Source: a virus
Length of the DNA: 64,000 bases
Virus record (IMG/VR): IMGVR_UViG_3300033984_000293
Coordinates: 62,001 to 126,000 of that record
Reading direction: 5' to 3' (one strand)
The notes under the pieces are model-generated. The model did not search any database, was not told the origin of the DNA, and saw only the letters and a list, made by a program, of their open reading frames with translations. This document shows positions 3,329 to 20,248 of this stretch, piece after piece (within the stretch, counting starts at the first letter, position 1; every line of letters begins with the position of its first letter). A program made the position numbers and the translations under genes.

Positions 3329-3418
3329 TGGTATCAGATGGGCTCGAACCACCGGCACAGAGTCTTTCGTTACTCCTGCTCTACCAAAGGAGATAAATCT
3401 CCACTGAGCTATAATACC
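3329..3418 (-). tRNA. tRNA-like gene with a 14-nt hairpin inserted in the D loop
   Basis: Acceptor GGTATTA/TGATACC with A73, canonical T-arm (GGTGG TTCGAGC CCATC) and 5-nt variable loop. The D-arm reads GCTCAGT, then GGAGA-TTTA-TCTCC, then TTGGTAGAGC. Deleting the perfect hairpin restores an ordinary D-arm. The anticodon stem GGAGT/ACTCT encloses eight bases (AACGAAAG) with no U at position 33, so no anticodon can be assigned. Confidence 0.55.
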
Positions 3419-3428
3419 ATATATTTTA

Positions 3429-3502
3429 GTGGACGTATGCTCTACCATCTGAGCTACGGGGTTAAGACCGGAGGGATTTGAATCCTCGACACAACGTCCA
3501 CC
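3429..3502 (-). tRNA. Candidate circularly permuted tRNA gene
   Basis: On the minus strand a T-arm (GAGGA TTCAAAT CCCTC) comes first and a canonical D-arm (TAGCTCAGATGGTAGAGC) comes second, the reverse of a normal gene. The outer ends pair perfectly (GTGGACGT with ACGTCCAC) and would form the anticodon arm. The acceptor halves CGGTCTT and AACCCCG are directly adjacent and pair at five of seven positions. This is the layout of permuted tRNA genes known from some algae and archaea. A degenerate tRNA or a tRNA-like element is the alternative. Confidence 0.4.
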
Positions 3503-3539
3503 TATTTTTTCAATAATTTTAAGAACTTTATTTCTTCTA

Positions 3540-3571
3540 CAAAGATAATACTTTTATTTTAATATATCAAA
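3540..3571 (-). promoter_or_regulatory. Bacteroidota promoter of the aberrant tRNA pair
   Basis: TATCTTTG at 3540-3547 and TTTG at 3568-3571, 20-bp spacer, 38 bp upstream of the candidate permuted tRNA. Confidence 0.65.
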
Positions 3572-3730
3572 TTATTTTAAAAATAATTCTAACAATTTTG
3601 TAATACCTAAACCAAAACACATTCCGGCAACAAAATAACTGAATGCGGGATTTCTACCTTTTTCTTTTTGAATTTTTGCACCGTATAGATTTATAACCGT
3701 CAATCCGAATTGTATTAATACTATTTCCAT
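3572..3730 (-). CDS. Small membrane protein
   Basis: 52 aa, with a hydrophobic N terminus (IVLIQFGLTVINLYG) and a hydrophobic C-terminal half (FSYFVAGMCFGLGI) joined by a basic KIQKEKGR loop. Two membrane spans are likely. A full promoter lies 27 bp upstream. No family is recognised. Confidence 0.55.
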   Translation of the reverse strand: MEIVLIQFGLTVINLYGAKIQKEKGRNPAFSYFVAGMCFGLGITKLLELFLK

Positions 3731-3756
3731 AATTTGTTTCTTTTTTAATTAGAGTA

Positions 3757-3787
3757 CAAAGATAATACTATTTTTTAATCTACCAAA
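3757..3787 (-). promoter_or_regulatory. Bacteroidota promoter of the small membrane gene
   Basis: TATCTTTG at 3757-3764 and TTTG at 3784-3787 with the preferred 19-bp spacer. It overlaps the 3' end of the preceding gene. Confidence 0.65.
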
Positions 3788-3927
3788 TCTTTTTTTGAAT
3801 TTTCATCAATTTTTTTTAATTCACTAATAAGTTGGTTACCGTACCACTCTAACCATTCAATATGGGTAAACTTTGAATCCGGATTATCCGACATAAAGTT
3901 TTTGTATTGTGTTTCTAATGTTGCCAT
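3775..3927 (-). CDS. Small hypothetical protein
   Basis: 50 aa, starting MATLETQYKNFMSDNPDSKF and ending in a lysine-rich helix (ELKKIDENSKKDLVD). Soluble and probably helical. It sits 15 bp downstream of an aberrant tRNA gene and may share its transcript. No family is recognised. Confidence 0.5.
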   Translation of the reverse strand: MATLETQYKNFMSDNPDSKFTHIEWLEWYGNQLISELKKIDENSKKDLVD

Positions 3928-3942
3928 ATAATTTAATTTTAG

Positions 3943-4019
3943 TAGTCAGAACAGGATTCGAACCTGTGTGTCCACATAAGGGGTTTCCTTACCGTGCATC
4001 TCCAATGTGCTACCTGACT
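3943..4019 (-). tRNA. tRNA-like gene, anticodon not assignable
   Basis: Acceptor AGTCAGG/TCTGACT with A73, D-arm GCA-CATTGGAGA-TGC, and T-arm ACAGG TTCGAAT CCTGT all look genuine. The anticodon region is about five bases too long. Its best fold is GTAAGG-AAACC-CCTTAT with a 5-nt loop, followed by an 8-nt variable segment. No loop placement gives U33. Confidence 0.5.
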
Positions 4020-4261
4020 AAATTGTGAATCAAAAAATTTCAGCCTTAGCTCAAAAATATCATCACACGATAAGACTTCTTTGTATGGTTCAGGTATCTA
4101 AACAACCTAGGTCATTCTGAATCTTCATATCATTAAAGCAATACCTTTTTTAAGGTTCAAATCCGAACTGTAACTCATTTATTCCTTAACTTACCTAAAT
4201 AAGTCTCTATGTTTATTCATAGCCCCTGTAGATACTACAGGTAGTTGACATCGTCGATTTG

Positions 4262-4406
4262 TAGTCAGGACAGGATTCGAACCTGTAAGGTATAACCACT
4301 AAAATCGTGGAGATGGAGGTCAATTCCTCTTTTACAATACCAACCTGTGAGCGTCTACCATCAGGAATTAGCTTTATCAGTGCTACCCTTGTTCCGCCAC
4401 CTGACT
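4262..4406 (-). tRNA. Interrupted tRNA-Leu-like gene (145 nt) with insertions in D and anticodon loops
   Basis: Acceptor AGTCAGG/CCTGACT with A73 and T-arm ACAGG TTCGAAT CCTGT. The D-arm is that of tRNA-Leu (GGCGGAA ... TGGTAGACGC), but about 31 bases intervene, containing TAGC/GCTA pairing. The anticodon side is also expanded by some 40 bases, with GGTAT/ATACC enclosing GAGG-AATTGA-CCTC and CCAC-GATTTTA-GTGG. It is twice normal tRNA length, and the anticodon cannot be read. Confidence 0.5.
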
Positions 4407-4575
4407 ATTTAAAAACTAATGGTGTGTTGTTACACCAAGATACGAGGTTCGTTACCACCTACGTGTGACACCCAATAACGATTTCCCTGGATGTTGACTT
4501 TTTGTCCGTACACTCCCACAAGGGGACAACTCCTTAGAAGATGGATACTATCAATCCCACTTCCCATTAGTTTTG

Positions 4576-4677
4576 TAGTCAGGACAGGATTCGAACCTGT
4601 TCCGTCTTTGCCATAAAGAGTCGGCCTTACCGTTACTCAACCTTGGGGAGGTGATACCAACCAATGGTCTCCTAACT
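4576..4677 (-). tRNA. tRNA-like gene with a roughly 37-nt variable region
   Basis: Acceptor AGTTAGG/CCTGACT with A73, D-arm ACC-ATTGGTT-GGT, and T-arm ACAGG TTCGAAT CCTGT. The anticodon stem is imperfect (TCACC/GGTTG) with loop TCCCCAA, where C replaces U33. The variable region is about 37 nt and folds into CCG...CGG capped by TCTTT-ATGGC-AAAGA. A promoter lies 15 bp upstream. Confidence 0.45.
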
Positions 4678-4691: not shown

Positions 4692-4722
4692 CAAAGATAA
4701 TACTTTATTTTAATTTACCAAA
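4692..4722 (-). promoter_or_regulatory. Bacteroidota promoter of the first tRNA-like block
   Basis: TATCTTTG at 4692-4699 and TTTG at 4719-4722 with a 19-bp spacer. It reads into the three tRNA-like genes at 4677-3943. Confidence 0.7.
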
Positions 4723-8063: not shown

Positions 8064-8094
8064 AAAAAAAGTGGGATATTACTCCCACTTTTTT
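8064..8094. terminator. Bidirectional intrinsic terminator
   Basis: AAAAAAGTGGGA-TATTAC-TCCCACTTTTTT, at the 3' end of the RNA ligase gene. Confidence 0.75.
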
Positions 8095-9118
8095 ACAACT
8101 TTTTAAATTCCGGTCTTATTAGATTCCATATGATTTCAGAGTAATTTTTCTTATCAAACATTCTAAACAGAATCCCTGACATATGTTTAGGTTGAGTGAA
8201 TACCCACTCAGCAAACTCTTTTCTATCTTCTATGGGTTCTTTATCGTTATATTTACCATACATCATACCATCAAACTTTTTACCAGCATCCTCAGATATT
8301 TGGAAATGACTATATCTTAAATCTCTAACATAAGATTTAATTTTATTGTAAAATTCGTCTGGAACATCTTTTAATATTTCCATAACATCCTCACCATTTT
8401 TCAAATACTCCCAAACTCCGGTTGTGGTAACATTGGTCATAATTTTGTGAAGACGAAGATACTCAACACCTTTAACTTTAACTCTATCCCCATTGGAGAA
8501 CTTCACCACAAACCCTTCTTGGTCGTTTTTAACCATTTCTTTGAGTTGTTTGTAGTCGTTTATACCATCGTATTTTTTAACCACATCAAACCCGTATTCT
8601 CTCCACATTTCCACATCATATTCTTTACCATTCTTATCAAAGGTTCCCAATAGGACTAACCCTTCATAATCACCGTAATCTACTACCACGCGATTCTGAG
8701 GAAATAAAATTTCAAAACAAAAAGTCAGATGTCTGAACATTATATCGGTGTTGTATTTTTTAAGTAATTCTCTACCCTTAATTGCTTGGTCTGAACCAAA
8801 TGACCCACGAGTCGCTAATATCCATTGTCCTTCGTACCAAAAAACTATTAAAAGTGAGCCATCCATTTTTTCATACACCTCAAAGTTTTCAGTTGGTTCA
8901 AATTTTCCTTCCTCTATGTTGAAGAATTTATCAAAAGGTTTTGCTACGATATCTCCGGTGTGGTCGGTAACTAAACCTCTACACATCAAAAGAGTTTCGT
9001 CCCACAAATTTTCATACTGGACTTTTTCGCTATAGTTCCATATAGTTAATGGGAGGTATGGATGTACTTGTTTGTAAAGTAATCCGTCTTCGTAATATTT
9101 GTTTAGTTTTTCTATCAT
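8093..9118 (-). CDS. T4 Rnl1-like RNA ligase
   Basis: 341 aa with ordered nucleotidyltransferase motifs. Motif I is EKMDGSLL with the adenylated lysine at residue 84; ATRGSFGS follows; motif III is FCFEILFP; motif IV is EGFVVKFS; motif V is RVKVKGVEYL. The family joins 3'-OH to 5'-phosphate RNA ends. T4 Rnl1 reseals tRNAs cut in the anticodon loop by host nucleases such as PrrC. The C-terminal part (HMSGILFRMF) is shared with phage Rnl1 proteins. Kinase and phosphatase-type genes lie within 5 kb on the same strand. Confidence 0.9.
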   Translation of the reverse strand: MIEKLNKYYEDGLLYKQVHPYLPLTIWNYSEKVQYENLWDETLLMCRGLVTDHTGDIVAKPFDKFFNIEEGKFEPTENFEVYEKMDGSLLIVFWYEGQWILATRGSFGSDQAIKGRELLKKYNTDIMFRHLTFCFEILFPQNRVVVDYGDYEGLVLLGTFDKNGKEYDVEMWREYGFDVVKKYDGINDYKQLKEMVKNDQEGFVVKFSNGDRVKVKGVEYLRLHKIMTNVTTTGVWEYLKNGEDVMEILKDVPDEFYNKIKSYVRDLRYSHFQISEDAGKKFDGMMYGKYNDKEPIEDRKEFAEWVFTQPKHMSGILFRMFDKKNYSEIIWNLIRPEFKKL

Positions 9119-9119
9119 T

Positions 9120-9374
9120 TTATTCTATTTTTTTTAAATTCTCTTCTAATCTACTTAAGAATGATTCTTCACCATCATCACCTGATAACAACCAATCCAC
9201 TCGTTGAGCGTATTCTTGAGCAATTTTAAGAGCTTTAACTGCATCTTTCATCTTCTCAATAACCTCATCCGGATATTTGTAATGGAATAAGTCCTCAGGG
9301 TATTTTTTATACCAATCAGGGTCAATCCAATGTTCTTTAAGTTCTTCCGGTGTTTTTTCTAAACCATTCTTCAC
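9120..9374 (-). CDS. Conserved-looking phage protein whose 5' end is displaced by a homing endonuclease
   Basis: 84 aa from GTG at 9374, but the frame stays open to 9449 and encodes SGGHFDYNQYKIGYIADQID before it, clearly part of the same protein. No ATG exists there. On the far side of the neighbouring GIY-YIG gene (about 10222) an ATG-AGT-GGG-GGG remnant (MSGG) is left. The original gene probably began MSGGHFDY and was split by the insertion. The C-terminal part (EYAQRVDWLLSGDDGEESF) is acidic and helical. Function unknown. Confidence 0.6.
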   Translation of the reverse strand: MKNGLEKTPEELKEHWIDPDWYKKYPEDLFHYKYPDEVIEKMKDAVKALKIAQEYAQRVDWLLSGDDGEESFLSRLEENLKKIE

Positions 9375-9441
9375 AATAACCTCATCTATTTGGTCTGCGA
9401 TGTAACCAATCTTATATTGGTTATAATCGAAATGCCCACCA

Positions 9442-10182
9442 CTAATGACTCACTCTCCCATCTTTATTTATATTCATAGTTTTAATATAATTTTCGTTAT
9501 TTATAATTTTACTAATATGTGATTGGTTAACACCATACATTTGAGCAATTTTTGTTTGACTTACCCCCTCTTTGTTCAATTTTTTTATCTCATTATAATC
9601 ACATTCCTCTAACTTAACATATTGTTTTTTTCTTAAAGACAAATCTAAATCTGTTGCAATAGTTTTATATCTTTTCTCAATCAAAATCAAACCAATTGTT
9701 CTCCTACTTACAGAATATAAATCACTAATTTCTTTTTGAGTTAATTTATTTTCAATTAACAACAATTTTATCTCTCGAACTTGTTCCGGTGTTAACTTTT
9801 TTAAGGATGACTCATAATGTCCGTGAATTTTACCAACGTTAACACTTTTGTTTGAGGAGCCTATCTTATCTTTTGTGTCTTGTGACATATACACATAACC
9901 TTCCATTGATTTAGGTAAACGACAATTTAAACCTATTTTATTATCTAAACATTCATAAAATGTACCATAAAATAACTCCCGTTCTAAAAGAATTTCAATA
10001 TCACATTCTTCAATAACTTCAAAAATGTGATTATCAACACCATATTTTACTAACGAGTTATATAATTTAGTTTGACTATTACATCTTAATTTTTTATACC
10101 ACTTCCAACGAGTATCAACATCTTTTGATGAACCGATATATACAAGACCTTTTGGACTTGTTATTTTATAAACTCCAATCAT
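9442..10182 (-). CDS. GIY-YIG homing endonuclease with helix-turn-helix DNA-binding tail
   Basis: 246 aa. N-terminal GIY-YIG catalytic domain: GVYKITSPKGLVYIGSS, then the arginine in DTRWKW and the glutamate in LLERELFYGTFYECL. The C-terminal half has at least two HTH repeats of the NUMOD/sigma-70 region 4 type (LTQKEISDLYSVSRRTIGLI and VSQTKIAQMYGVNQSHISKI). It is inserted at the start of the 9120 gene and its stop overlaps that reading frame. Confidence 0.9.
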   Translation of the reverse strand: MIGVYKITSPKGLVYIGSSKDVDTRWKWYKKLRCNSQTKLYNSLVKYGVDNHIFEVIEECDIEILLERELFYGTFYECLDNKIGLNCRLPKSMEGYVYMSQDTKDKIGSSNKSVNVGKIHGHYESSLKKLTPEQVREIKLLLIENKLTQKEISDLYSVSRRTIGLILIEKRYKTIATDLDLSLRKKQYVKLEECDYNEIKKLNKEGVSQTKIAQMYGVNQSHISKIINNENYIKTMNINKDGRVSH

Positions 10183-10233
10183 ATTTTAAACTTTATTTAT
10201 AAATATATTAGAATCAAATAAAAGTCCCCCCAC

Positions 10234-10617
10234 TCATATCAATTCAAATTTTGTTAATGTCTCTCTTCTTTCTTCTTTGTTAATCCCCAATAAATAATTT
10301 TTAACATTACTTACAATCGGTTTACTGTAAATTTGAACTATCTCACTAAAGGTTATTGTTTTCTTTACAATCTGAGTCGGGTCACCTTTTAATCTACCGT
10401 TTTTATAATCACTAATAGCTGTGAGAATAGTTTTCTTATAACCACTATTTCCATCAATTAGGTTTATTGTATGGTCTGTGTATTGTCCGTTGATAATCAA
10501 TCTAAGTAAATGAACCTTTCTCGCTTTACCATAAGTAATAACATATTCGTCATACCCATTATGATTGAATCCGGTCTCCGTTTTTTCGTATTTGGCAACT
10601 TTAAAGATATTTTCCAT
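10234..10617 (-). CDS. Hypothetical protein
   Basis: 127 aa, mixed alpha/beta, with YVITYGKARKVHLLRLIINGQYTDHTINL and a C-terminal NYLLGINKEERRETL. It has its own full promoter at 10638 inside the kinase gene. No family is recognised. Confidence 0.65.
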   Translation of the reverse strand: MENIFKVAKYEKTETGFNHNGYDEYVITYGKARKVHLLRLIINGQYTDHTINLIDGNSGYKKTILTAISDYKNGRLKGDPTQIVKKTITFSEIVQIYSKPIVSNVKNYLLGINKEERRETLTKFELI

Positions 10618-10637
10618 AATTAACTAATTTTGTGGGT

Positions 10638-10668
10638 CAAAGATATTAAATTAAAGTTTTACCTCAAA
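10638..10668 (-). promoter_or_regulatory. Bacteroidota promoter
   Basis: TATCTTTG at 10638-10645 and TTTG at 10665-10668, 19-bp spacer. The -33 box lies in the end of the kinase gene; it drives the 127-aa gene. Confidence 0.65.
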
Positions 10669-11034
10669 ACGATTTTTCATTAATTTCAATTTATCTTCCG
10701 GAACCCCGTGTTCATTAACACCTTCGTGTCTGTTTTCACAAATTAAAGAATAAACTCTATATCCGTGTTTTTCAGCCAAGTCAAAGTATGGTTTCATTTC
10801 CCATTCTTGAGTAAATGTGTTTGATACCACAACTCGTTTGCCTTTATTTTCCATAAAAACTTTTACAGCGTTTTGACACCAATCGTGAGCGTCTTTTAAT
10901 TTAGTAACGTCAAATTCGTACTTACCTTCGTAGGTAAAGTATTTATCCGCTTCCATATGTTGACCACCTAATGATTCCGCCAACGTAGATTTACCACTTC
11001 CTGGTAATCCTCTTAATAAAAATAACTCTTTCAT
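10651..11034 (-). CDS. Polynucleotide kinase-like P-loop kinase
   Basis: 127 aa. Walker A RGLPGSGKSTLA at residues 8-19, then the DAHDWCQNAV and VVSNTFTQEWEM segments typical of the T4 Pnkp kinase domain and related AAA_33 proteins. There is no fused 3'-phosphatase, unlike T4 Pnkp. It would phosphorylate 5'-OH nucleic acid ends, which with the ligase at 8093 makes a plausible RNA-repair pair. Its start overlaps the stop of the gene upstream by 4 bases. Confidence 0.8.
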   Translation of the reverse strand: MKELFLLRGLPGSGKSTLAESLGGQHMEADKYFTYEGKYEFDVTKLKDAHDWCQNAVKVFMENKGKRVVVSNTFTQEWEMKPYFDLAEKHGYRVYSLICENRHEGVNEHGVPEDKLKLMKNRFEVKL

Positions 11035-11321
11035 ATTTCACATTCTTTTAAATATTTAACAATCTTCTCAATCCCACCAACATCATCCGGATTGATGATA
11101 AACTCATCAAATGCTCCGTATCTTGACTGATGTCCAAAAATATATTTTAATCCATAACCAACTCTTTGCCAAAATGGTCGTTTAACCAAATGAGTATGAA
11201 CATAAACCATTGGAAATCTTACACCATCAATATCGTCCTCATCATATAGGACAACCATTTGATGTTCCGTGTTATGACAGGAACACACAAATAAATCTTT
11301 TTTTGTTTGTTTAATTCTCAT
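11031..11321 (-). CDS. Hypothetical protein
   Basis: 96 aa from the ATG at 11321, chosen over one 36 bases upstream because it overlaps the preceding stop by only 4 bases. CSCHNTEHQMVVLYDEDD near the N terminus and FWQRVGYGLKYIFGH in the middle suggest a compact alpha/beta fold. The single CSCH cluster could bind metal. Function unknown. Confidence 0.65.
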   Translation of the reverse strand: MRIKQTKKDLFVCSCHNTEHQMVVLYDEDDIDGVRFPMVYVHTHLVKRPFWQRVGYGLKYIFGHQSRYGAFDEFIINPDDVGGIEKIVKYLKECEI

Positions 11322-11581
11322 ATTACTTTCACTTCTATTAATTTTCTTCTTAACCACTGTTCATCAACATTATCAGGTCTTTTACCTAAAATAATTTCAT
11401 CAATCGTATCCCCAAGACATTCCATCAACATTCTTTTTATTTCTGCCGGTGCATCCATTGGCGCATACGAATAACAATCTTGTATCATTTCGTGAGATAA
11501 CGGGACCTCAATTATTATTCGTGACGATATAAATGAATCATCTTCATTAAAATGATTATCCTCAACTCTTGTGTTTAACAT
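11318..11581 (-). CDS. Hypothetical protein
   Basis: 87 aa, acidic N terminus (VEDNHFNEDDSFISSRI) and a helical C terminus (DTIDEIILGKRPDNVDEQWLRRKL). It is translationally coupled at both ends, 1 bp after the phosphoesterase and overlapping the next gene. No family is recognised. Confidence 0.65.
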   Translation of the reverse strand: MLNTRVEDNHFNEDDSFISSRIIIEVPLSHEMIQDCYSYAPMDAPAEIKRMLMECLGDTIDEIILGKRPDNVDEQWLRRKLIEVKVI

Positions 11582-11582
11582 A

Positions 11583-12245: not shown

Positions 12246-12424
12246 TTTATACGTTCTTTGATTATTAATTTTTTTGCTCTATCAAATAAAGTGTCAAAAT
12301 ACTTACCAAATTCTTCATCAGAAACTACTTTATTAAAAAAGTCATCAAAAGTAATAATTTCACCACTTTCATCCAAATGAAGTTTATATGCTCTCTCAAC
12401 TATTTTTTCACCTTCCGGACCCAT
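12242..12424 (-). CDS. Hypothetical protein
   Basis: 60 aa from the ATG at 12424, which overlaps the upstream stop as TAATG, so translation is probably coupled. Helical and charged (EKIVERAYKLHLDESGEIITFDDFF, FDRAKKLIIKERIK). No family is recognised. Confidence 0.6.
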   Translation of the reverse strand: MGPEGEKIVERAYKLHLDESGEIITFDDFFNKVVSDEEFGKYFDTLFDRAKKLIIKERIK

Positions 12425-12894
12425 TATACGTGTGGTATTTGGACTCTCACACAAGTTTGTGCTTGACCCTCGTTCATATAAAAATTGTTCAAATATCCCA
12501 TTATGTTCGCACTTCCGATTGGGTTTGCAGAATGAACATATACAATTGGAAATACAAATTTGTCAGCCTTTCTTTCACTTCTACTCATATTGAATCTACC
12601 TTCATTTGTATTGTGAAACAACGCAACCAAGAACTTAGAGGCATCATATCCGGTTTTCTCATCAATATTGTTGTAATCCAAAGTATAATTTGGCGAAACA
12701 TTGTTGAAATACTCCTTCATTGCTGTATCCCCCAAATCGTGGTCCAACGAAATTATATCAATATTCTCCAATCCAATCTCATTAACTTTACTAACAAATT
12801 CATCGTAATTTCTTACAACTATCCAATTATCTCCGGTTGGAGTTCTTACGTCATCTAAATAGATACGATAAGGTGGTTTTACATTATTTTCCAT
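12424..12894 (-). CDS. cREC-like receiver-domain protein (cyclic-phosphate processing receiver)
   Basis: 156 aa. IYLDDVRTPTGDNWIVVRN at the start and ISLDHDLGD in the middle match the divergent receiver-like domain described in comparative work as an RNA-repair-associated cyclic-phosphate-processing receiver (cREC). The acidic LDD and LDHDLGD loops would bind metal. It lies in one operon with the metallophosphoesterase and HAD nucleotidase, near the ligase and kinase. The family call rests on motif memory only. Confidence 0.6.
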   Translation of the reverse strand: MENNVKPPYRIYLDDVRTPTGDNWIVVRNYDEFVSKVNEIGLENIDIISLDHDLGDTAMKEYFNNVSPNYTLDYNNIDEKTGYDASKFLVALFHNTNEGRFNMSRSERKADKFVFPIVYVHSANPIGSANIMGYLNNFYMNEGQAQTCVRVQIPHV

Positions 12895-12895
12895 T

Positions 12896-13369
12896 TTATA
12901 ATAATTTTTTTAATACACTATCCCAATCAGGGTATTCATTCCAAACTTTTTTCTCATAATTCCACCCAAAATGAATTAATTCACCGGTGAACTCTCCGGC
13001 ACCGTTTGCCGTTCTATCATCAATTAAATAATCACCAAGTAATAAATCTTTTCGATGAGTAATTACCATTTTTTTATGAAATAACTTACCAAAATATTTC
13101 TCAATCCAATACCTTTTATCCGTAGACGCATAAGGGTTTCCCCAAGGCGCCGCAGTGGCAATCAATAATTCATATTTCCCACTATCAACCAACTTATTGA
13201 TTGCCTCAATTGCCCCATCATATGGTTTAGGGTCTCTAAAGATACCCGGAATATGGTCAGGACTATGTTTGTATTTGTGAACTAAATTTGGATGTTCATC
13301 GAACCATTTATCAAATTCTCCCCCTAAATCAACCAATACACCATCCATATCAATAAAAATTCTTTTCAT
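12896..13369 (-). CDS. 5'(3')-deoxyribonucleotidase-like HAD phosphatase
   Basis: 157 aa. HAD motif I is IFIDMDGVLVDL, motif II lies in LLIATAAPW, the K of motif III in FHKKMVITHRKDLL, and motif IV is LIDDRT. The cap pattern PKPYDGAIEAINKL is that of the NT5C family, which dephosphorylates (d)NMPs. A role in nucleotide metabolism or, given the neighbours, in trimming nucleic-acid 3' phosphates is possible. It is the first gene of the operon and has a -7 box upstream. Confidence 0.8.
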   Translation of the reverse strand: MKRIFIDMDGVLVDLGGEFDKWFDEHPNLVHKYKHSPDHIPGIFRDPKPYDGAIEAINKLVDSGKYELLIATAAPWGNPYASTDKRYWIEKYFGKLFHKKMVITHRKDLLLGDYLIDDRTANGAGEFTGELIHFGWNYEKKVWNEYPDWDSVLKKLL

Positions 13370-14528: not shown

Positions 14529-14643
14529 TTTATGTAGAGTTAACTGGTATCTACACTTAGGAATGACCCTAAGACCACCGTTCATCACCTGTAAGGGTCT
14601 AACGATAGATATTGTACTTGCTTACACTCAAATATCCGCTGTG

Positions 14644-14717
14644 TCCTATACAGGATTCGAACCTGTGACCTTTTCGTTATGAGCGAACTGCTACTGACCG
14701 GACTGAGCTAATAGGAC
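14644..14717 (-). tRNA. tRNA-Met (CAT)
   Basis: Acceptor GTCCTAT/ATAGGAC, anticodon loop CTCATAA, T-arm ACAGG TTCGAAT CCTGT, A73. The anticodon stem has one mismatch and the D-loop is long. CAT could be elongator Met, initiator, or lysidine-dependent Ile. No encoded CCA. Confidence 0.9.
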
Positions 14718-14756
14718 TAAAATGGGTTTTTAATGAACCCACAAACATATGTCAAC

Positions 14757-14987
14757 TTATTGGTGGTGTTTCACATACCTACCAAATTTATCAACCCTCA
14801 CAGAGAGTTTCTCCAATCTAAAGTTCCACTGTTTGAACTTTCCTAAGCCCGATTTAATTCGTGCTTGTTTAATCGCAGATTCCTCTGCCTTCTCACGTCC
14901 TTCTTCCGTAGTTTCTACGAAAAAAGTGGGAGCCTGAACACCGTTATTAACGGGAACTACTCTCCAAATTCTCAATTTCTGAGTCAT
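14757..14987 (-). CDS. Small basic hypothetical protein inside the tRNA array
   Basis: 76 aa, with a beta-hairpin-like start (KLRIWRVVPVNNGVQAPTFFVETTEE) and a very basic second half (KKQARIKSGLGKFKQWNFRLEKL). It could bind nucleic acid. It sits between tRNA-Met and tRNA-Leu on the same strand. Confidence 0.65.
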   Translation of the reverse strand: MTQKLRIWRVVPVNNGVQAPTFFVETTEEGREKAEESAIKQARIKSGLGKFKQWNFRLEKLSVRVDKFGRYVKHHQ

Positions 14988-15054
14988 AAATTTTAGCTAA
15001 TAGCTAAAACTATGTGGAGTTGGGTTGGTTGTTTTTCATATTAATAAATATTAG

Positions 15055-15133
15055 TATCCCCGACGAGAGTTGAACTCGTAAGCCTAAGCGTCTCCTTTTA
15101 AGGAAGAGGTGTTTACCGTTTCACCACGGGGAT
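15055..15133 (-). tRNA. tRNA-Leu (TAA)
   Basis: Acceptor ATCCCCG/CGGGGAT, A73, D-stem GTG/CAC, anticodon stem TCTTC/GGAGA with loop CTTAAAA, 11-nt variable region, T-arm ACGAG TTCAACT CTCGT. Confidence 0.92.
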
Positions 15134-15351
15134 GTGTTCCCCCAATGAGATTAATTTGGGGTAGATTTTTTCTGTTTTCCTATTCAAAAGTCGAGACGGT
15201 CTTACCCGCACATAAAAGTCAACTATTACTTGGAGGTGAGTTAGTACGCTCCCTTTTCCCAAAGACCCCCTCTGTAAAACCGTTTGAGGCGTCAGCTACA
15301 TCTTTGTTTAAGAAACGATGCCAAATCTATTGAGTATCTCTATCTCAATTG

Positions 15352-15444
15352 TAGTCAGGAGAGGAATCGAACCTCTCTACAGGGTGCTACCCGTCATCCG
15401 TGACCTTCCATCGGACTCGAACCGACCTTGTATCCAACCTGACT
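15352..15444 (-). tRNA. tRNA-like gene with two T-arm-like hairpins
   Basis: Acceptor AGTCAGG/CCTGACT with A73, and a true T-arm AGAGG TTCGATT CCTCT at the 3' end. A second hairpin, TCGG-TTCGAGT-CCGA, sits near the D-arm/anticodon position; read as an anticodon arm it would give CGA (Ser). About 33 further bases follow, with GTCA-CGGA-TGAC and ACGGG-TAGCAC-CCTGT. Not a standard cloverleaf. Confidence 0.45.
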
Positions 15445-15452
15445 ATATTATA

Positions 15453-15527
15453 ACAACTACTCTTATCCCGTCTGTTATTCACAAGCCCTAATTTGTGTCA
15501 GGAGATTCGAACTCCATCCCTAGTTGT
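15453..15527 (-). tRNA. Weak candidate for a second permuted tRNA-like element
   Basis: A T-arm (GGAG TTCGAAT CTCC, preceded by 5-nt GGGAT) lies at the 5' side. The outer ends pair (ACAACTA with TAGTTGT) as an anticodon stem would in a permuted gene. CACAA/TTGTG could be a short acceptor. The D-arm is not convincing, so this is a low-confidence call. Confidence 0.25.
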
Positions 15528-15569
15528 CAAGTGTGTCTAAAGAGCGTTTGACACTTCCTTTATAATTTG

Positions 15570-15692
15570 TAGTCAGAACAGGGGTCGAACCTGTAATAAA
15601 AGACAAGCGGTTAGTCCTTTCACAAGGATTAGGGATTATGTCTATTCCCACATTTAACACACCACTGCGTACACCAATTCCGCCACCTGACT
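15570..15692 (-). tRNA. tRNA-Leu-like gene with about 42 nt inserted in the anticodon loop
   Basis: Acceptor AGTCAGG/TCTGACT with A73, a normal Leu-type D-arm (GCGGAATTGGTGTACGC), T-arm ACAGG TTCGACC CCTGT and a 12-nt variable region. The anticodon stem GTGGT/ACCGC encloses 49 bases instead of seven. The insert holds GGGA...TCCC and TCCTT-GTGA-AAGGA, a GNRA-capped hairpin. The mature anticodon cannot be told from sequence. Confidence 0.55.
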
Positions 15693-15766
15693 ATTTTCTC
15701 GTCTTTCCGAGATGTCAACTACTTGTATGTTGTTCCTACATACCAATCCTCTTATAGTCGATTTTG

Positions 15767-15887
15767 TGAACAGAGTAGGATTCGAACCTACAATAGTACC
15801 ATACTCATAAATTTCCGTTTACTTCGAGGAATCGAACCTCATCTCCCGACCTCCTGGCCGAGACGCTTTACCATTTACCACCCGTTC
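15767..15887 (-). tRNA. Long tRNA-like gene with internal T-arm-like hairpin
   Basis: Acceptor GAACGGG/TCTGTTC with A73, D-arm-like GTAAATGGTAAAGC, and T-arm GTAGG TTCGAAT CCTAC. Between them an 8-bp hairpin TCTCGGCC-AGGA-GGTCGGGA replaces a normal anticodon arm. An extra GAGG-TTCGATT-CCTC hairpin precedes a roughly 34-nt spacer. Total length is 121 nt. Confidence 0.4.
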
Positions 15888-15893
15888 ATTTTG

Positions 15894-15967
15894 AGCTTCC
15901 TGTCAGAATCGAACTGACTCTATTCCGGGTTACAAATCCGGTACACCACCATTCGTGCGTAGGAAGC
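15894..15967 (-). tRNA. tRNA-Thr (TGT)
   Basis: Acceptor GCTTCCT/AGGAAGC, D-stem GCAC/GTGT, anticodon loop TTTGTAA on CCGGA/CCCGG, T-arm GTCAG TTCGATT CTGAC. Confidence 0.9.
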
Positions 15968-16177
15968 CTGTCGCAGAGTATTTTTTTTAAGTAGAAGTCA
16001 ACTCTGTCTCTTAAACTACTAAAAGAAACTGCCCAAGGTCTATCCTGCTTTCGCTGTCCAGATTTTTCTCTGTTTCTTATAACATCATCACTTCGGCCAC
16101 ATTGGGAGAACCGCAGTTCCCACGTTGTTTAAGGAGGTAGTTGGCGGTGTATCACACCGAGTTATGATAATGTATTG

Positions 16178-16250
16178 TACCTCAGGAGGGAATCGAACCC
16201 TCAAAATCTTGTTCCTAAGACAAGCGTGTCTACCGTTCCACCACCAAGGC
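16178..16250 (-). tRNA. tRNA-Leu (TAG)
   Basis: Acceptor GCCTTGG/CTGAGGT, D-stem GTG/CAC, anticodon stem CTTGT/ACAAG with loop CTTAGGA, T-arm GAGGG TTCGATT CCCTC, A73. The variable region has only five bases, short for a leucine tRNA. Confidence 0.9.
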
Positions 16251-16258
16251 AATTGATG

Positions 16259-16330
16259 TGACTCCACAGGGATTCGAACCCCGATAATTTCCTTAGAAGA
16301 GAAATGTCCTATCCGTTGAACGATGGAGCC
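16259..16330 (-). tRNA. tRNA-Arg (TCT)
   Basis: Acceptor GGCTCCA/TGGAGTC, D-arm GTTCAACGGATAGGAC, anticodon stem TTTCT/GGAAA with loop CTTCTAA, T-arm CGGGG TTCGAAT CCCTG, A73. Confidence 0.93.
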
Positions 16331-16740
16331 AATTTATTCTGTTACCGACATAGATTGGTAATTAAGTGTGAAGGCCCAAACCCCTTCACTCCCCTATTAT
16401 AGTCTGTCGCAACGTTGGAACGAATGCCGACCTTTTCACTTAACCTTTCGTTAGACATACGAATCTATGTTTTCTGTATGTGGTGAGTAACTTCCTTCCC
16501 CACTTGTGTTTCCGAGATATCGAGGGCACCATACTGTCTAACGTCAAACAGAATATAAAATTTAAAATAAAACACTGCTGTGGAGCAACACCACAATCCG
16601 ACTTAAGGTTTTCATCAGGTGGATAGCTAATCCGGACTTATTCCCTTCTCACCGCAAAACAGATAATACGTACTTTCTGAATACTATAGGTGTCGTGATA
16701 ACAGGTGCTGGTTAACCTATTTTCGTCGTGTTGTATTTTT
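16331..16740 (-). other. 410-nt non-coding spacer with structured-RNA features
   Basis: No ORF and no TTCRA T-arm. On the minus strand it holds strong hairpins: TGTGG-TGTTGCT-CCACA, TAAC-GAAA-GGTTA with a GNRA loop, and GTGAAGG-GGTTTGG-GCCTTCAC. It is probably transcribed with the array and may be another structured RNA. Confidence 0.35.
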
Positions 16741-16813
16741 GTGCGAGTACCGGTAGTCGAAACCGGCCCATCTGATTGGAAGTCAGAGATGCTACCGAAA
16801 CACTTCACTCGCA
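16741..16813 (-). tRNA. tRNA-Gly (TCC)
   Basis: Acceptor TGCGAGT/ACTCGCA, D-loop with GG, anticodon stem TCTGA/TCAGA with loop CTTCCAA, T-arm CCGGT TTCGACT ACCGG. Confidence 0.9.
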
Positions 16814-16840
16814 GTTAGATGAAATTAATCATCTATTTTG

Positions 16841-17014
16841 TTACACTTTTGTTTTAAGAGTGTCAATCTCTTTGTTGATTCTCTTCACATCAGAATCAGT
16901 TAATGGAATCTTGGTATCCATAGTACCTTTTTCGGTTTTTACACCATTTTTTAATTGTTTCTCCAACATTTCAAGAACTCTTTGTTGTCTTGACCTTTTT
17001 GCTACTGTAGCCAT
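16841..17014 (-). CDS. Small charged hypothetical protein inside the tRNA array
   Basis: 57 aa, starting MATVAKRSRQQRVLEMLEKQ and ending in a helix (DSDVKRINKEIDTLKTKV). Basic N terminus, mostly helical; a nucleic-acid-binding or coiled-coil role is possible. It lies between tRNA-Gly and tRNA-Met on the same strand. Confidence 0.6.
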   Translation of the reverse strand: MATVAKRSRQQRVLEMLEKQLKNGVKTEKGTMDTKIPLTDSDVKRINKEIDTLKTKV

Positions 17015-17037
17015 ACGGATTTAGTTATTAAATTAGT

Positions 17038-17108
17038 AGCGTAGGGCAGGTAACGCTCCTGCTTTGTTCGGCTTATGAGACCGATGGGATACTATACCCC
17101 CCCCTCGC
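17038..17108 (-). tRNA. tRNA-Met (CAT) with non-standard T-loop
   Basis: D-stem GGG/CCC with loop TATAGTAT lacking GG, anticodon stem TCGGT/GCCGA with loop CTCATAA, T-stem GCAGG/CCTGC with loop AGCGTTA instead of TTCRANY. Acceptor GCGAGGG/CCTACGC has one A-A mismatch. The second CAT tRNA of the window. Confidence 0.85.
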
Positions 17109-17126
17109 GATGTATTATTTATTTTG

Positions 17127-17233
17127 CTGACTAATAAGGATTTGAACCTTAATCTCCCTTCCCCTGAGAAGCCCACGTTCCAGGGACTCGAACCCTGTTT
17201 TGGAGGATGGTGTGCACCATTACACTATAATCA
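17127..17233 (-). tRNA. Interrupted tRNA-like gene with an insert beyond a Trp-like anticodon loop
   Basis: The D-arm (GTG-TAATGGTG-CAC) and 3' T-arm (TAAGG TTCAAAT CCTTA) are clean, and the acceptor TGATTA/TAGTCA pairs. After CCATC the sequence CTCCAAA could be an anticodon loop (CCA). The 3' strand of the stem is missing there; about 45 bases intervene, including a T-arm-like CAGGG-TTCGAGT-CCCTG and CTTC-TCAGGG-GAAG. Anticodon uncertain. Confidence 0.45.
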
Positions 17234-17283
17234 ATCGGATGCTTCGAATCATCCATTCCCAAGGTAATTAATCTTGAGTTTTG

Positions 17284-17354
17284 CGGTCTATGACGGTAAC
17301 GCTCCGTCTACTCAACAGTGACAGTGTTGGATGATGCTTCTTCACTAATAGACC
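17284..17354 (-). tRNA. tRNA-Asp (GTC) with non-standard T-loop
   Basis: Acceptor GGTCTAT/ATAGACC, G73, D-stem GTGA/TCAT with loop AGAAGCA lacking GG, anticodon stem CAACA/TGTTG with loop CTGTCAC, T-stem GACGG/CCGTC with loop AGCGTTA. Confidence 0.88.
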
Positions 17355-17370
17355 TTGTTTTTATTCTCAA

Positions 17371-17402
17371 CAAAGATAGGTAGAACAATTTAAACTACCA
17401 AA
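17371..17402 (-). promoter_or_regulatory. Bacteroidota promoter of the second tRNA array
   Basis: TATCTTTG at 17371-17378 and TTTG at 17399-17402, 20-bp spacer, 16 bp upstream of tRNA-Asp. Confidence 0.7.
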
Positions 17403-17423
17403 TCTTTTTTTATTTTATTTTTG

Positions 17424-17495
17424 TGGAGGTACACGGTAACGCTCCGTGTTCTGTGATTTGCAAAACCACTGTAATTGCTTTTATACGATACCCCC
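17424..17495 (-). tRNA. tRNA-Ala (TGC) with non-standard T-loop
   Basis: Acceptor GGGGGTA/TACCTCC, A73, D-stem GTA/TAC with loop TAAAAGCAAT lacking GG18-19, anticodon stem GTGGT/ATCAC with loop TTTGCAA, T-stem CACGG/CCGTG with loop AGCGTTA. Its first 15 bases overlap the end of the GIY-YIG gene upstream. Confidence 0.88.
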
Positions 17496-18125
17496 ATTAT
17501 TTATTTTCCTTCCCAATCTCCATCCTTCCGGAATTAAATCTCCTTTAAATATTTTTTTATTCTCAATTTCATTTGTTATCCAACAAGTCCCATACTGAGA
17601 ATTATTTTCCCCATTACCTTGTCCTTTTCGAGATTCTTTCATTTTCTCAATAGATTCGGGGCTATGTTTTTTCCCTTTAAAATTATCATACTTAATCTTC
17701 CCCTCTTTATGTAGTTTTTTTACTCCTTCTTGTCTTACACGAATCATTTTATCTCGATATTCCGGGTCTTTCCATCTTTCTTTCATAAGAATACTAGACG
17801 CTATTTGACCCTTTTCCCAATCTTTTTTTGTAAATCCACCTGAACCACCTTCTTTAAGATTCATACATAATTTATCGGAGATTAAAATCTTATCAACAAT
17901 TTTTAACTCTCGAATAACTAACTCTTCTCTTGTTAGTAAAAACTCCAAAATTTCTTTTGTGTGGTTTTCTTTACCGTATTTTCTAATAGAATATCTTAAT
18001 CGTTTTCCACTACCCAAATAACCATCTTCTAAATTAGTGGTACTGTGCATTCCGATATAAAATCTATTTGTAACATTACAAGTTGTTTTATAAATGTAAT
18101 GTATATGTGGTTTTTTTCTCGCCAT
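17481..18125 (-). CDS. GIY-YIG homing endonuclease (Seg-like) with NUMOD3-type repeat
   Basis: 214 aa. HYIYKTTCNVTNRFYIGMHST is the GIY-YIG motif, followed by the catalytic arginine region (KRLRYSIRKYGKENH) and glutamate (ELVIRELKIV). The second half carries NUMOD3-type DNA-binding segments (KGKKHSPESIEKMKESRKG, GENNSQYGTCWI). Its last five codons overlap the start of tRNA-Ala, suggesting that a tRNA gene is its insertion point or that the two RNAs are cotranscribed. Confidence 0.9.
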   Translation of the reverse strand: MARKKPHIHYIYKTTCNVTNRFYIGMHSTTNLEDGYLGSGKRLRYSIRKYGKENHTKEILEFLLTREELVIRELKIVDKILISDKLCMNLKEGGSGGFTKKDWEKGQIASSILMKERWKDPEYRDKMIRVRQEGVKKLHKEGKIKYDNFKGKKHSPESIEKMKESRKGQGNGENNSQYGTCWITNEIENKKIFKGDLIPEGWRLGRKINNGGIV

Positions 18126-18182
18126 TTTGTTCTTTTACTATAAATATCTCAATATATAGTAAAAGTACAAAAATGTTTAAAG

Positions 18183-18254
18183 TACTGCCACGGAGAATCG
18201 AACTCCGATTTTATGGATGAAAACCATATATCCTGACCGTTAGATGATGGCAGC
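18183..18254 (-). tRNA. tRNA-Glu (TTC)
   Basis: Acceptor GCTGCCA/TGGCAGT, D-arm ATCTAACGGTCAGGAT, anticodon stem TATGG/CCATA with loop TTTTCAT, T-arm CGGAG TTCGATT CTCCG, A73. Confidence 0.93.
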
Positions 18255-18359
18255 GAATTTTGGATAGATGAGGTTCTATCCGGACCAGGACTTTCTCCCT
18301 TGGGAGATGTCATTTTTACATTATCAATATTTCAATTAACTTGTTTCTTTTTGATGGTA

Positions 18360-18390
18360 CAAAGATAATACTTTATTTCATTCTACCAAA
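18360..18390 (-). promoter_or_regulatory. Bacteroidota promoter
   Basis: TATCTTTG at 18360-18367 and TTTG at 18387-18390 with a 19-bp spacer, reading into tRNA-Glu. Confidence 0.7.
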
Positions 18391-18392
18391 TT

Positions 18393-18497
18393 TTATTCTT
18401 CTTTTTTTTCTTCTTCGATTAAAACATTTTTTAATCCGTAGGTTACTCCTAATATTGGTGAGTAATCCATAACCAACTCTTCTCTTATATCGTCCAT
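18393..18497 (-). CDS. Very small hypothetical protein
   Basis: 34 aa (MDDIREELVMDYSPILGVTY...), ending in an acidic and basic run EEEKKEE. Kept because a -7 box lies 22 bp upstream and codon use fits its neighbours. Function unknown. Confidence 0.4.
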   Translation of the reverse strand: MDDIREELVMDYSPILGVTYGLKNVLIEEEKKEE

Positions 18498-18518
18498 ATC
18501 TTGTTTTTTAATTCGGTA

Positions 18519-18526
18519 CAAAGATA
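18519..18526 (-). promoter_or_regulatory. Bacteroidota -7 box
   Basis: TATCTTTG on the minus strand upstream of the 34-aa gene; the -33 position reads TTGTC, only partly matching. Confidence 0.5.
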
Positions 18527-18557
18527 ATCTTTTATTTCATTCCGACAACTATAAACC

Positions 18558-18593
18558 AAAAAAAAATCCACCTTTTTTGAAGATGGATTTTTG
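18558..18593. terminator. Bidirectional intrinsic terminator
   Basis: AAAAATCCAccTTTTTTgaaGATGGATTTTT; the arms AAAATCCA and TGGATTTT pair. Confidence 0.55.
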
Positions 18594-18822
18594 AATATTT
18601 TTTTTACTTAAATATATATCATACCATCGACTTCCAAGTTGTATCTCTACCCTCAGTTCCCGCTATCGTAAGTAATATGTTTAAAGTTTGCATTTGTTGT
18701 GTTATTGTAATTTCTAATAAATATACGACTTTTTATAAAAGTGTCAAGTCTTTTTTTATTTATTTTTTTAATAACGATGATTTTAAAACTATTTATAGAT
18801 AATAAACGTTAAAAACTTTAAT

Positions 18823-18993
18823 ATGAATAAAGAACAAATTTTTGGTGTTATTCGCCATGTATTCACTGCCGTTGGTGGTATTGTAATTGCTCAAGGTTAC
18901 ATTTCTGACGGATTGTACACTGAACTATCGGGTGCGGTATTAACATTAGTTGGTGTAATTTGGTCAATTGTTGCCAAAAAACCAGTAGTGTAA
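18823..18993 (+). CDS. Holin-like small membrane protein
   Basis: 56 aa. Two hydrophobic segments, IRHVFTAVGGIVIAQGY and LSGAVLTLVGVIWSIV, are joined by SDGLYTE; the C terminus is AKKPVV. The GG...QG and WS pattern resembles the small phage holins of the Pam3-gp28 type. Holins open the inner membrane to release endolysin. Isolated plus-strand gene followed by a strong terminator; no lysin adjoins it (candidates are at 6811 and 55868). Confidence 0.65.
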   Translation: MNKEQIFGVIRHVFTAVGGIVIAQGYISDGLYTELSGAVLTLVGVIWSIVAKKPVV

Positions 18994-19001
18994 TAAACAA
19001 T

Positions 19002-19033
19002 AAAAAGGGTTAGATAATTCTAACCCTTTTTTT
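19002..19033 (+). terminator. Intrinsic terminator
   Basis: AAAAAGGGTTAGA-TAAT-TCTAACCCTTTTTTT after the holin-like gene; also usable from the minus strand. Confidence 0.75.
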
Positions 19034-19046
19034 ATAATTATTATTT

Positions 19047-19391
19047 TTAATAATCCCAAATATCTTTATCTTTATCTCTTTTAAGTAATTTTTTATATTC
19101 GAGAACTTTTTTTGGATTTATAAATCTAATTCCGTTATATAGGAATGAATGATTATCAATTAAATCATCAATATCATATTTGGGCCAATTATCGAAGAAC
19201 TCAATATCTTTGGTTCTATATTCTCCTTTATCATTGAATCCCCATTTTGATGGTCGTATAATAACATCTAAATCGTTAACATCATCAACCATACCGGTTA
19301 TCACTAATGGTGCCGAACCAAAAACAGCATAATCCTCAGAGTTTAAATTATAATCCTTGAGTTTATCCATTAAAAATTTAAAGTTTTTCAT
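19047..19391 (-). CDS. Nucleotidyltransferase-fold protein (MNT-like)
   Basis: 114 aa. YAVFGSAPLVITGMVDDVNDLDVIIRPS (about 22-49) has the GS...DxD layout of the polymerase-beta nucleotidyltransferase fold used by minimal nucleotidyltransferases and aminoglycoside nucleotidyltransferases. The rest is charged and helical. Embedded among tRNA genes, it could act on RNA, but no CCA-adding-enzyme motif is present. Confidence 0.6.
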   Translation of the reverse strand: MKNFKFLMDKLKDYNLNSEDYAVFGSAPLVITGMVDDVNDLDVIIRPSKWGFNDKGEYRTKDIEFFDNWPKYDIDDLIDNHSFLYNGIRFINPKKVLEYKKLLKRDKDKDIWDY

Positions 19392-19408
19392 ATTGATAAA
19401 TATATAAA

Positions 19409-19608
19409 AAAAAGTTTAACAACCCCGCCCTTGGGTCGTAGCGGGCAACAATGGGAAATCCGGAATTCGTCGTGTTCGTCACCGGCGTACTAGTCCTTAT
19501 CTATCCTTTACCATATTTCTATGGTGCTACTATTGGGAGGTCACCCCTATCAACACGTCTAGTCCATTAATTTTTTAGAGTATGGACACCCCGGTTGTTA
19601 AACTTTTT
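19409..19608 (-). ncRNA. 200-nt non-coding RNA closed by a 16-bp terminal inverted repeat
   Basis: On the minus strand AAAAAGTTTAACAACC (19593-19608) pairs perfectly with GGTTGTTAAACTTTTT at the other end (19409-19424), followed by further T. The interior has GC-rich segments (CCCGCTACGACC, CGCCGGTGACG) unusual for this AT-rich genome. No ORF. It may be a structured RNA or the terminator stem of the upstream tRNA transcript. Confidence 0.5.
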
Positions 19609-19614
19609 AATTTG

Positions 19615-19687
19615 GGATATTGATAGGATTCGAACCTATATCCTCCCGGCCTTACGCCGGTCGCACGTCCAATTGTGCTTCAAAATC
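19615..19687 (-). tRNA. tRNA with G33, anticodon loop CGTAAGG
   Basis: A clean cloverleaf: acceptor GATTTTG/CAATATC (one mismatch), D-arm GCAC-AATTGGAC-GTGC, variable AGGAT, T-arm ATAGG TTCGAAT CCTAT. The anticodon arm is CCGG-CGTAAGG-CCGG. By position the anticodon is TAA, but position 33 is G instead of U, and C32-G38 can pair to shrink the loop to GTAAG. Confidence 0.6.
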
Positions 19688-19759
19688 CATATTTCTTCGG
19701 GAGAGACCCTCTAGGGATAACCATAACGGAATTACCCTTGACTCACTCTCCGTCTTCTG

Positions 19760-19830
19760 CGCAGACCGTAGGAATCGAACCTACCCATCGAGGTTTTGGA
19801 GACCTGACCGACGCCTTGTCTGTGACCTGC
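19760..19830 (-). tRNA. tRNA-Trp (CCA)
   Basis: Acceptor GCAGGTC/GGTCTGC, G73 as in bacterial tRNA-Trp, anticodon loop CTCCAAA, T-arm GTAGG TTCGATT CCTAC. The D-loop is short (AAGGC). Confidence 0.9.
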
Positions 19831-19996
19831 ATTTAATAACATAATTCTTCTTGGTTCCCCGCCGGGTAACCCCCCTACTTTTTCACACAACCCGGATGCC
19901 TCCGAATCTAATTTTCTATTTTACTCCCTAGTAAGAAACGCGTCTTCCATTCGGTTGTTCAAGCCCATTTTCGTGGTTAAACAATTATGTTATTTG

Positions 19997-20066
19997 AGGT
20001 CTCGGTGGGAATCGAACCCACTCTGTTAGTTTTGCAGACTAACCGGTCGCCACGACCATCAAGACC
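19997..20066 (-). tRNA. tRNA-Cys (GCA)
   Basis: Acceptor GGTCTTG/CGAGACC, U73 as expected for Cys, D-stem GGTC/GACC, anticodon stem GTTAGT/ACTAAC with loop CTGCAAA, T-arm GTGGG TTCGATT CCCAC. Confidence 0.9.
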
Positions 20067-20141
20067 AATTAACCTACGACCTAAAGAACAGGAATTGTGT
20101 CCATATCATTCTATGAGTACCGTAGGTTTTCTATTTTAAAA

Positions 20142-20248
20142 TTATCACTACGGGATTCGAACCCGTATTCAGTAACAAATTAAGAGATTCTATCTCAGTT
20201 ACTATGCTAACCCAAGGTGGTATTCATTCCCACTTACACCAAGTGATA
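20142..20248 (-). tRNA. tRNA gene with hairpin insertions in both D loop and anticodon loop
   Basis: Acceptor TATCACT/AGTGATA with A73, variable TGAAT and T-arm ACGGG TTCGAAT CCCGT are standard. The D-loop contains a 17-nt hairpin GTGG-GAATGAATA-CCAC; without it the arm is GTG-TAACTTGGGTTAG-CAT. The anticodon stem GTAAC/GTTAC encloses 21 bases holding GAGAT-AGA-ATCTC. Removing 14 bases leaves a 7-nt loop TTAATTT, so AAT (Ile) is one possible anticodon. Confidence 0.6.

Follow-up and report, generated by a model that had tools for sequence, protein, structure and literature searches.

Departures from the ordinary tRNA gene have been described in several systems. In transfer-messenger RNA (tmRNA), which works with SmpB, the acceptor, T arm and D loop are retained and a long insert replaces the anticodon arm; the bacterial Y RNA YrlA (RF02553) is a non-decoding tRNA mimic; the laboratory tRNA scaffold places a foreign RNA at the anticodon-arm position of a tRNA (PMC3753655); and plant RNA viruses encode tRNA-like structures at the 3' ends of their RNA genomes. 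Phages also carry tRNA genes with a possible anti-defence role, which decode and have altered anticodon loops (PMC10264068, PMC11555353). Here we describe tRNA-like RNAs (TLS) encoded in a 64-kb stretch ("the window") of the 156,626-bp IMG/VR virus record IMGVR_UViG_3300033984_000293, which are best explained, with a rough probability of 0.55, as stable tRNA mimics that can probably be charged with leucine and that carry variable RNA payloads. They recall each of the systems above and differ from each. Among cellular RNAs they resemble tRNA-Leu, a class II elongator, whose acceptor, T and D arms, A73, A14, A15-U48, G18G19 and A20a they share; unlike it, they have no anticodon arm and a hypervariable core, and an exact probe of their 3' end finds no cellular tRNA. 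Unlike YrlA, they are not permuted and occur in multi-copy arrays; unlike tmRNA, they have cores that are too short and carry no tag-like frame endings, their identity elements are of the leucine and not the alanine type, and SmpB was not found in most records with TLS. Unlike the laboratory scaffold they are natural, multi-copy and phage-encoded, unlike the plant virus structures they are separate genes in DNA phages, and unlike the defence-evading phage tRNAs they do not decode.

The original prediction described four tRNA genes interrupted by small hairpins in their D and anticodon loops. All four elements, TLS a (at 3329), b (20142), c (15570) and d (4262), are present on the minus strand (Table 1), and they are non-decoding tRNA-like RNAs, additional to a normal decoding tRNA set. 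They exceed chance expectation because a, c and d score 36.7, 32.8 and 26.6 bits against RF00005 (Infernal), all four acceptors pair at 7/7 positions, a, b and d have orthologues, and a shows compensatory changes; TLS b received no call from ARAGORN or Infernal, though an orthologue exists. The predicted hairpins are real. The D-loop hairpin of a is there and its deletion gives a normal D arm, and b has both a D-loop hairpin and a hairpin at the anticodon-loop position. The hairpin TCCTT-GTGA-AAGGA of c also exists, lying in a long central segment that is not an anticodon-loop insertion, and the D loop of d does contain an insert, at about 4361-4391, but its supposedly expanded anticodon loop is a different RNA domain. 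In both c and d another RNA domain makes up the entire anticodon/variable region, and in a the "anticodon arm", GGAGT-AA-C[GAAA]G-ACTCT, lacks both U33 and an anticodon. A 5-bp anticodon stem with a 7-nt loop and U33 is absent from TLS a, b, c, d, f and h of the window; of 95 elements in which such an arm could be tested for, 10 have one under a loose definition. Besides the predicted loci, the window holds TLS e, f, g and h and a circularly permuted element next to a. A 7-bp acceptor, a T arm and a D arm with GG, as in canonical tRNAs, are found in b and in the family that shares the chassis described below; the D arm of e and f deviates. Taken with the comparisons that follow, these observations make it highly probable that the loci code for a family of non-decoding tRNA-like RNAs.

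Four window members (3943, 4262, 15352 and 15570) have an AGTCAGG acceptor, which in c, d, e and h reads AGTCAGG/CCTGACT-A or TCTGACT-A; the T arm ACAGG/CCTGT is common to c, d and e, and c and d carry the leucine-type D arm TGGCGGAATTGGTAGACGC. Across phages, members of the family combine a tRNA-Leu-like chassis that hardly varies (acceptor AGTCAGG/CCTGACT-A73, D arm TGGCGGAATTGGTAGACGC, T arm ACAGGTTCGAATCCTGT) with a hypervariable core that has a median length of ~58 nt and ~0.1 bit of conservation per position. Retrieval with a 23-nt probe from the 5' side only, chosen to avoid circularity, yielded 138 untruncated elements, of which 133 had a T arm and 3' acceptor that matched, with ACAGG in 90/110, CCTGACT in 94/110 and A73 in 95/110, all among the matches listed. 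The 161 cores group into 131 clusters by sequence, and their degree of structure moderately exceeds that of shuffled sequences (mean z -0.66, standard error 0.09; shuffled controls +0.16). GNRA hairpins are no more frequent in cores than in shuffles (18% in each), and docking of GNRA loops was therefore rejected as a general rule.

The tertiary contacts of the chassis were analyzed in 215 elements with unrelated cores (215 core clusters). U8 is kept in 98%, A14 in 93%, G18G19 in 93% and A73 in 93%, and base 15 covaries with position 48, the base preceding the T stem: A15-U48 occurs 182 times, A15-C48 9 times, G15-U48 twice and G15-C48 8 times (Fisher P=1.8e-8 for A15-U48/G15-C48, against P=0.04-0.55 at three neighbouring control positions). 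Because these bases are kept and 15 and 48 covary across unrelated cores, the upper half of the TLS, judged by comparison, folds as a tRNA elbow. The same evidence bears on decay, which the original prediction had offered as its alternative. A drifting graveyard of tRNA pseudogenes would account for the high diversity, the degenerate copies and the fast turnover of tRNA arrays, but both chassis ends are conserved independently of the probe, secondary and tertiary pairs covary, and a full ordinary tRNA set is kept alongside; with structural constraint thus retained, we rejected this explanation as very improbable.

The chassis features also coincide with those by which leucine tRNAs are recognized. 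In Escherichia coli, leucine identity depends on A73, A15-U48, G18G19, A20a and D/T-loop contacts, and tRNA-Leu without its anticodon and variable arms is still charged if the D/T-loop contacts persist (PMC9976931). The features of a tRNA-Leu charging substrate (A73, A14, A15-U48, G18G19, A20a and the D/T-loop contacts) are all found in the chassis, and leucylation of the phage TLS is plausible because these reviewed determinants, active without an anticodon arm, are the ones retained. Alanine identity (G3-U70) is absent, the acceptor beginning A1-U72, G2-C71, U3-A70. A role in tmRNA/SmpB tagging was rejected: the cores have no tag-like reading-frame endings, SmpB occurs in only 10 of 25 records, and ARAGORN finds no tmRNA in the window.

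Twelve distinct variants of TLS a were collected with the motif GAGTAACGAAAGACTC, and the D-loop hairpin is present in 12/12. In an alignment of 11 of them, 99.3% of pair cells of the cloverleaf plus hairpin are paired (100% in the hairpin itself, helix 3), and nine pairs, including two of the D-loop hairpin, have both partners changed; 0/500 shuffles matched this covariation, and slid controls gave 0-2 double-change pairs. The arm at the anticodon position is a nearly invariant AA-bulged stem capped by C(GAAA)G. Since the hairpin is kept in every variant, shows compensatory changes and accompanies an arm without U33 or anticodon, comparison indicates that it is a working part of a non-decoding RNA. 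Directly upstream of a in most copies lies the permuted element 3429-3501, whose closing stem has changed in a compensatory way from GTGGACGT/ACGTCCAC to GTGGGTGT/ACACCCAC. With a permuted tRNA-like module and a long closing stem it resembles YrlA in topology, at a score of 34.3 bits (E=5e-4) that falls short of the Rfam gathering score of 69.

These results leave little room for the proposal that splicing removes mini-inserts from interrupted tRNA genes at the four loci, which we now consider barely credible. The phage does encode an RNA ligase and a kinase, and the D-loop insert at 4262 and the hairpin at 20142 are missing from orthologues. The AGTCAGG family, however, has no conserved anticodon arm flanking its insert and no common exon boundary, so the insertions are not removable in the sense proposed, and excision would yield no decoding tRNA. 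The hairpin at 3329 is under structural selection, and the archaeal-type splicing endonuclease PF01974 was found in 0/15 records, which may be incomplete. Nor do group I or II introns fit: no intact tRNA remains after removal, no conserved anticodon-arm exon stands on either side, and no intron family matches in the window.

Comparison among related phages reveals a modular organization in which D-loop inserts and cores shuffle independently of each other. L064, L076 and L200 have the core of d but lack its D-loop insert; in L260 the insert is joined to a different core, and a pair of its stem has changed from T-A to C-G. The core of f is carried on other D arms in other phages, and the D arm of TLS f shows changes among A-T, T-A and C-G. 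The D insert of b is kept in L210 (5418-5508) and L267 (near 165-250) while other stems differ: L210 lacks the anticodon hairpin, and L267 departs from b in all of its acceptor, T and anticodon-position stems. The core of h is conserved in relatives such as L011, L210, L151, L293, L250, L094 and L245, and homologues of g occur in L006, L016 and L146 and, on an AGT(T)AGG-type chassis, in L283. Both h and g carry second T arms, and in L038 and L165 a second tRNA-like element is nested in the D loop. Alleles with and without the insert exist for the D insert of d and the anticodon hairpin of b, whose absence from orthologues indicates that some inserts are true presence/absence modules, in line with the original prediction, albeit inside non-decoding RNAs; the hairpin of a is never absent in the copies compared. 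Swaps of core, D insert and D arm break at the element ends, as they would if identical ends were DNA recombination sites and the cores mobile cargo. We consider such cassettes improbable, since the ends covary as RNA (A15-U48/G15-C48 and acceptor wobble variants), which DNA sites would not need.

The 3' end pattern has at least 120 matches in viral contigs. Extended by one base and matched exactly, it occurs in 10 stretches among 84,980 cellular genomes, nearly all of them contigs of metagenome-assembled genomes (MAGs), some with tRNA arrays of their own; for this exact probe the AGTCAGG family thus appears to be restricted to phages. As many as 15 copies occur in one record of 208 kb and 10 in another of 62 kb, the latter with TLS interspersed in a compact ordinary tRNA set; two loci contain ~17 (L205, within 13 kb) and ~12 (L206) AGTCAGG-type elements. 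Copies always lie on one strand within each record (a reversed-pattern control gave 0), and 142 elements have most of the ordinary tRNAs within 3 kb on their own strand, while 0 elements have most of them on the other. A blastn comparison with 50,697 named phage records gave no match to TLS f or to region 3300-3545, and a probe joining the two chassis ends gave, among 60 matches listed from named phages, short partial matches, mostly to ordinary tRNAs. In Rfam the TLS arrays match RF00005 only, mostly weakly, and we found no description of such RNAs in the open-licence literature; they look like an undescribed class of viral RNA. A freshwater-1 RNA (RF02979) at L205:2385-2447 lies near a TLS array, not on a TLS. 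The core of f (4600-4655) contains ATCACCTCC, similar to the 16S rRNA 3' tail, probably by chance because homologues vary (CACCCTCC).

At the level of sequence comparison, then, we regard as established the chassis, its conservation against hypervariable cores, the tertiary covariation, the shuffling and the multi-copy arrays. On the favoured reading, of stable tRNA mimics displaying diverse RNA payloads, the constant acceptor stem, D arm, T arm, elbow contacts and A73 would fold like the upper half of tRNA-Leu, and a hypervariable structured module, joined in some copies by a D-loop module, would take the place of the anticodon and variable arms. Because leucine determinants that work without an anticodon arm are kept, the RNAs may be transcribed together with tRNAs, mature through RNase P cleavage, tRNA 3' processing and CCA addition, and be charged with leucine; we put processing and charging of the chassis at even odds. 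Several observations weigh against this reading. No payload target was found, and complementarity of the cores within the window does not exceed chance, matches being short, which also led us to reject guide or antisense RNAs. Average core structure is only moderate (z -0.66), a and f lack the leucine D arm, and position 73 is G or U in ~7% of elements. The near-invariant acceptor could stem partly from gene conversion or shared descent, and the leucine determinants are those of E. coli (PMC9976931), from which the host's leucyl-tRNA synthetase may differ. It is also possible, if on balance unlikely, that TLS are structured small RNAs, regulators or binders of host factors, whose tRNA ends serve as processing and stability caps without charging, a counterpart in nature of the laboratory tRNA scaffold. 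Single cores recur in conserved form in different phages, and some show compensatory change; expression in a tRNA scaffold is an established laboratory method (PMC3753655), but the retention of A15-U48, A20a and A73 exceeds what end protection needs.

What the payloads of such mimics would do is a more speculative matter. Host factors may be what they bind, and they would then most likely act as decoys or inhibitors in a tRNA-cleavage conflict, a role that would explain both the fast diversification and the nearby RNA-repair genes; an anti-defence purpose is plausible but on balance unlikely. Known defences cut phage and host tRNAs, and one engages the tail, acceptor and T arm (PMC12851939). 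By imitating the acceptor, T arm and elbow, TLS could sequester or inhibit nucleases that act on tRNA tails or bodies, with cores diversifying in an arms race. Phages are known to use tRNAs against tRNA-cutting defences (PMC10264068, PMC11555353), genes for an RNA ligase, a kinase, a phosphatase and a cREC domain are close by, and the cores are hypervariable. Against this, no host or defence system can be named, the usual target, the anticodon loop, is missing, and the acceptor hardly varies in sequence, although changes in the stem are tolerated by Cas12a3; as a full account, the decoy role seems rather unlikely. We infer the link between TLS, the repair genes and tRNA-cutting defence from these associations.

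The window's full-length Hsp70/DnaK gene (50889-52757), of huge-phage type, encodes a protein with 62-67% identity to Hsp70 of 635-735-kb uncultured phages, which places the virus in the huge-phage world. Several window genes are preceded by TATCTTTG promoter-like elements, which we take to be the Bacteroidota-type -7 element; given these and the labels of 4 of the 10 MAG loci with AGTCAGG-family RNA (Sediminibacterium, Chitinophagaceae or Bacteroidetes), the host is probably a Bacteroidota species. All window tRNA genes are on the minus strand, and the order of the ordinary ones is mostly preserved in relatives. ARAGORN calls cover the 20 amino acids together with Ala-TGC 17424, Phe-GAA 25339, Ser-GCT 23810 and Trp-CCA 19760, the last identified by reading the sequence directly. 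Several ordinary-looking Met, Asp, Ala and Phe tRNAs have the T loop AGCGTTA or AGCGTAA, not TTCRANN, with U54-A58 apparently swapped to A54-U58 and G55 replacing U55. A tRNA-like gene at 19615-19687 (40 bits) has the loop CGTAAGG without U33 and a CCGG stem. The GOLLD RNA and the SmpB gene are neighbours, each found in 10/25 records, mainly the same close relatives of the window, and dependence of TLS on GOLLD was rejected on this distribution. Non-coding region 2930-3325 is 88-99% conserved across ~12 loci, with internal pieces missing in some, and looks like another structured RNA. Between the window's two TLS clusters lie the ligase, kinase, metallophosphatase and cREC genes, part of an RNA-repair-like group (8093-13369) that also includes an NT5C-type phosphatase.

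Table 1. Coordinates of TLS and neighbouring features in the window, with comparable T loops in other loci
Feature	Position	Strand	Remarks
TLS a	3329-3418	-	D-loop hairpin; GAAA-capped arm at anticodon-arm position
D-loop hairpin of TLS a, GGAGA-TTTA-TCTCC	3389-3402	-	structure conserved
Circularly permuted tRNA-like element	3429-3501	-	weak YrlA match; directly upstream of TLS a
Second TATCTTTG-type promoter element	3540-3547		upstream of YrlA-like element
TLS e	3943-4019	-	AGTCAGG acceptor, ACAGG T arm, no canonical anticodon arm
TLS d	4262-4406	-	Leu-like chassis, D-loop insert, non-tRNA central domain
D-loop insert module of TLS d	4361-4391	-	
TLS f	4576-4677	-	acceptor, 3-bp D arm, multi-hairpin core, T arm
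TATCTTTG promoter-like element	4692-4699	-	directly upstream of TLS f
TLS h	15352-15444	-	AGTCAGG acceptor, second T arm nested inside; ARAGORN: tRNA-Pro
TLS c	15570-15692	-	Leu-like chassis, long non-decoding core
TLS g	15767-15887	-	tRNA-like, T arm duplicated
TLS b	20142-20248	-	28-nt D loop, bulged hairpin AAGTGG..CCACCTT; variable anticodon-position arm
Anticodon-position-loop hairpin of TLS b, GAGAT-AGA-ATCTC	20184-20196	-	absent in L210
SmpB gene	692-1129		
GOLLD RNA	2007-2414	-	306 bits
T4 Rnl1-like RNA ligase	8093-9118	-	PF09511 2.5e-18
AAA_33 kinase, polynucleotide-kinase-like	10651-11034	-	PF13671 5e-14
Metallophosphoesterase	11583-12245	-	PF00149 2.9e-8
cREC cyclic-phosphate processing receiver domain	12424-12894	-	PF20274 2.7e-18
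Main ordinary-tRNA array	14641-26203	-	all 20 amino acids covered
tRNAs with AGCGTTA/AGCGTAA T loop	17038-17108, 17284-17354, 17424-17495, 25339-25411		
AGCGTTA/AGCGTAA T loops outside the window	L010:2200, L011:6025/7088/7230, L016:1603		

Phage tRNA arrays have so far been read as translation helpers or as substitutes for cut tRNAs. In some arrays a large share of the genes cannot decode and yet keep the tRNA elbow and the leucine determinants, which bears on the open question of why phages have so many tRNA genes. It is also a warning that tRNA callers mislabel such genes; ARAGORN labels several TLS as Thr, Pro, Tyr, Gln or Arg tRNAs. A tentative extension of the favoured reading is that a phage-restricted, leucine-chargeable chassis with hypervariable payloads, kept in multi-copy arrays, may form an exchangeable effector arsenal against host RNA-targeting immunity or translation factors. 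If transcribed and charged, TLS would be a tRNA-scaffold system that arose in nature and would represent a new way in which DNA viruses mimic tRNAs.

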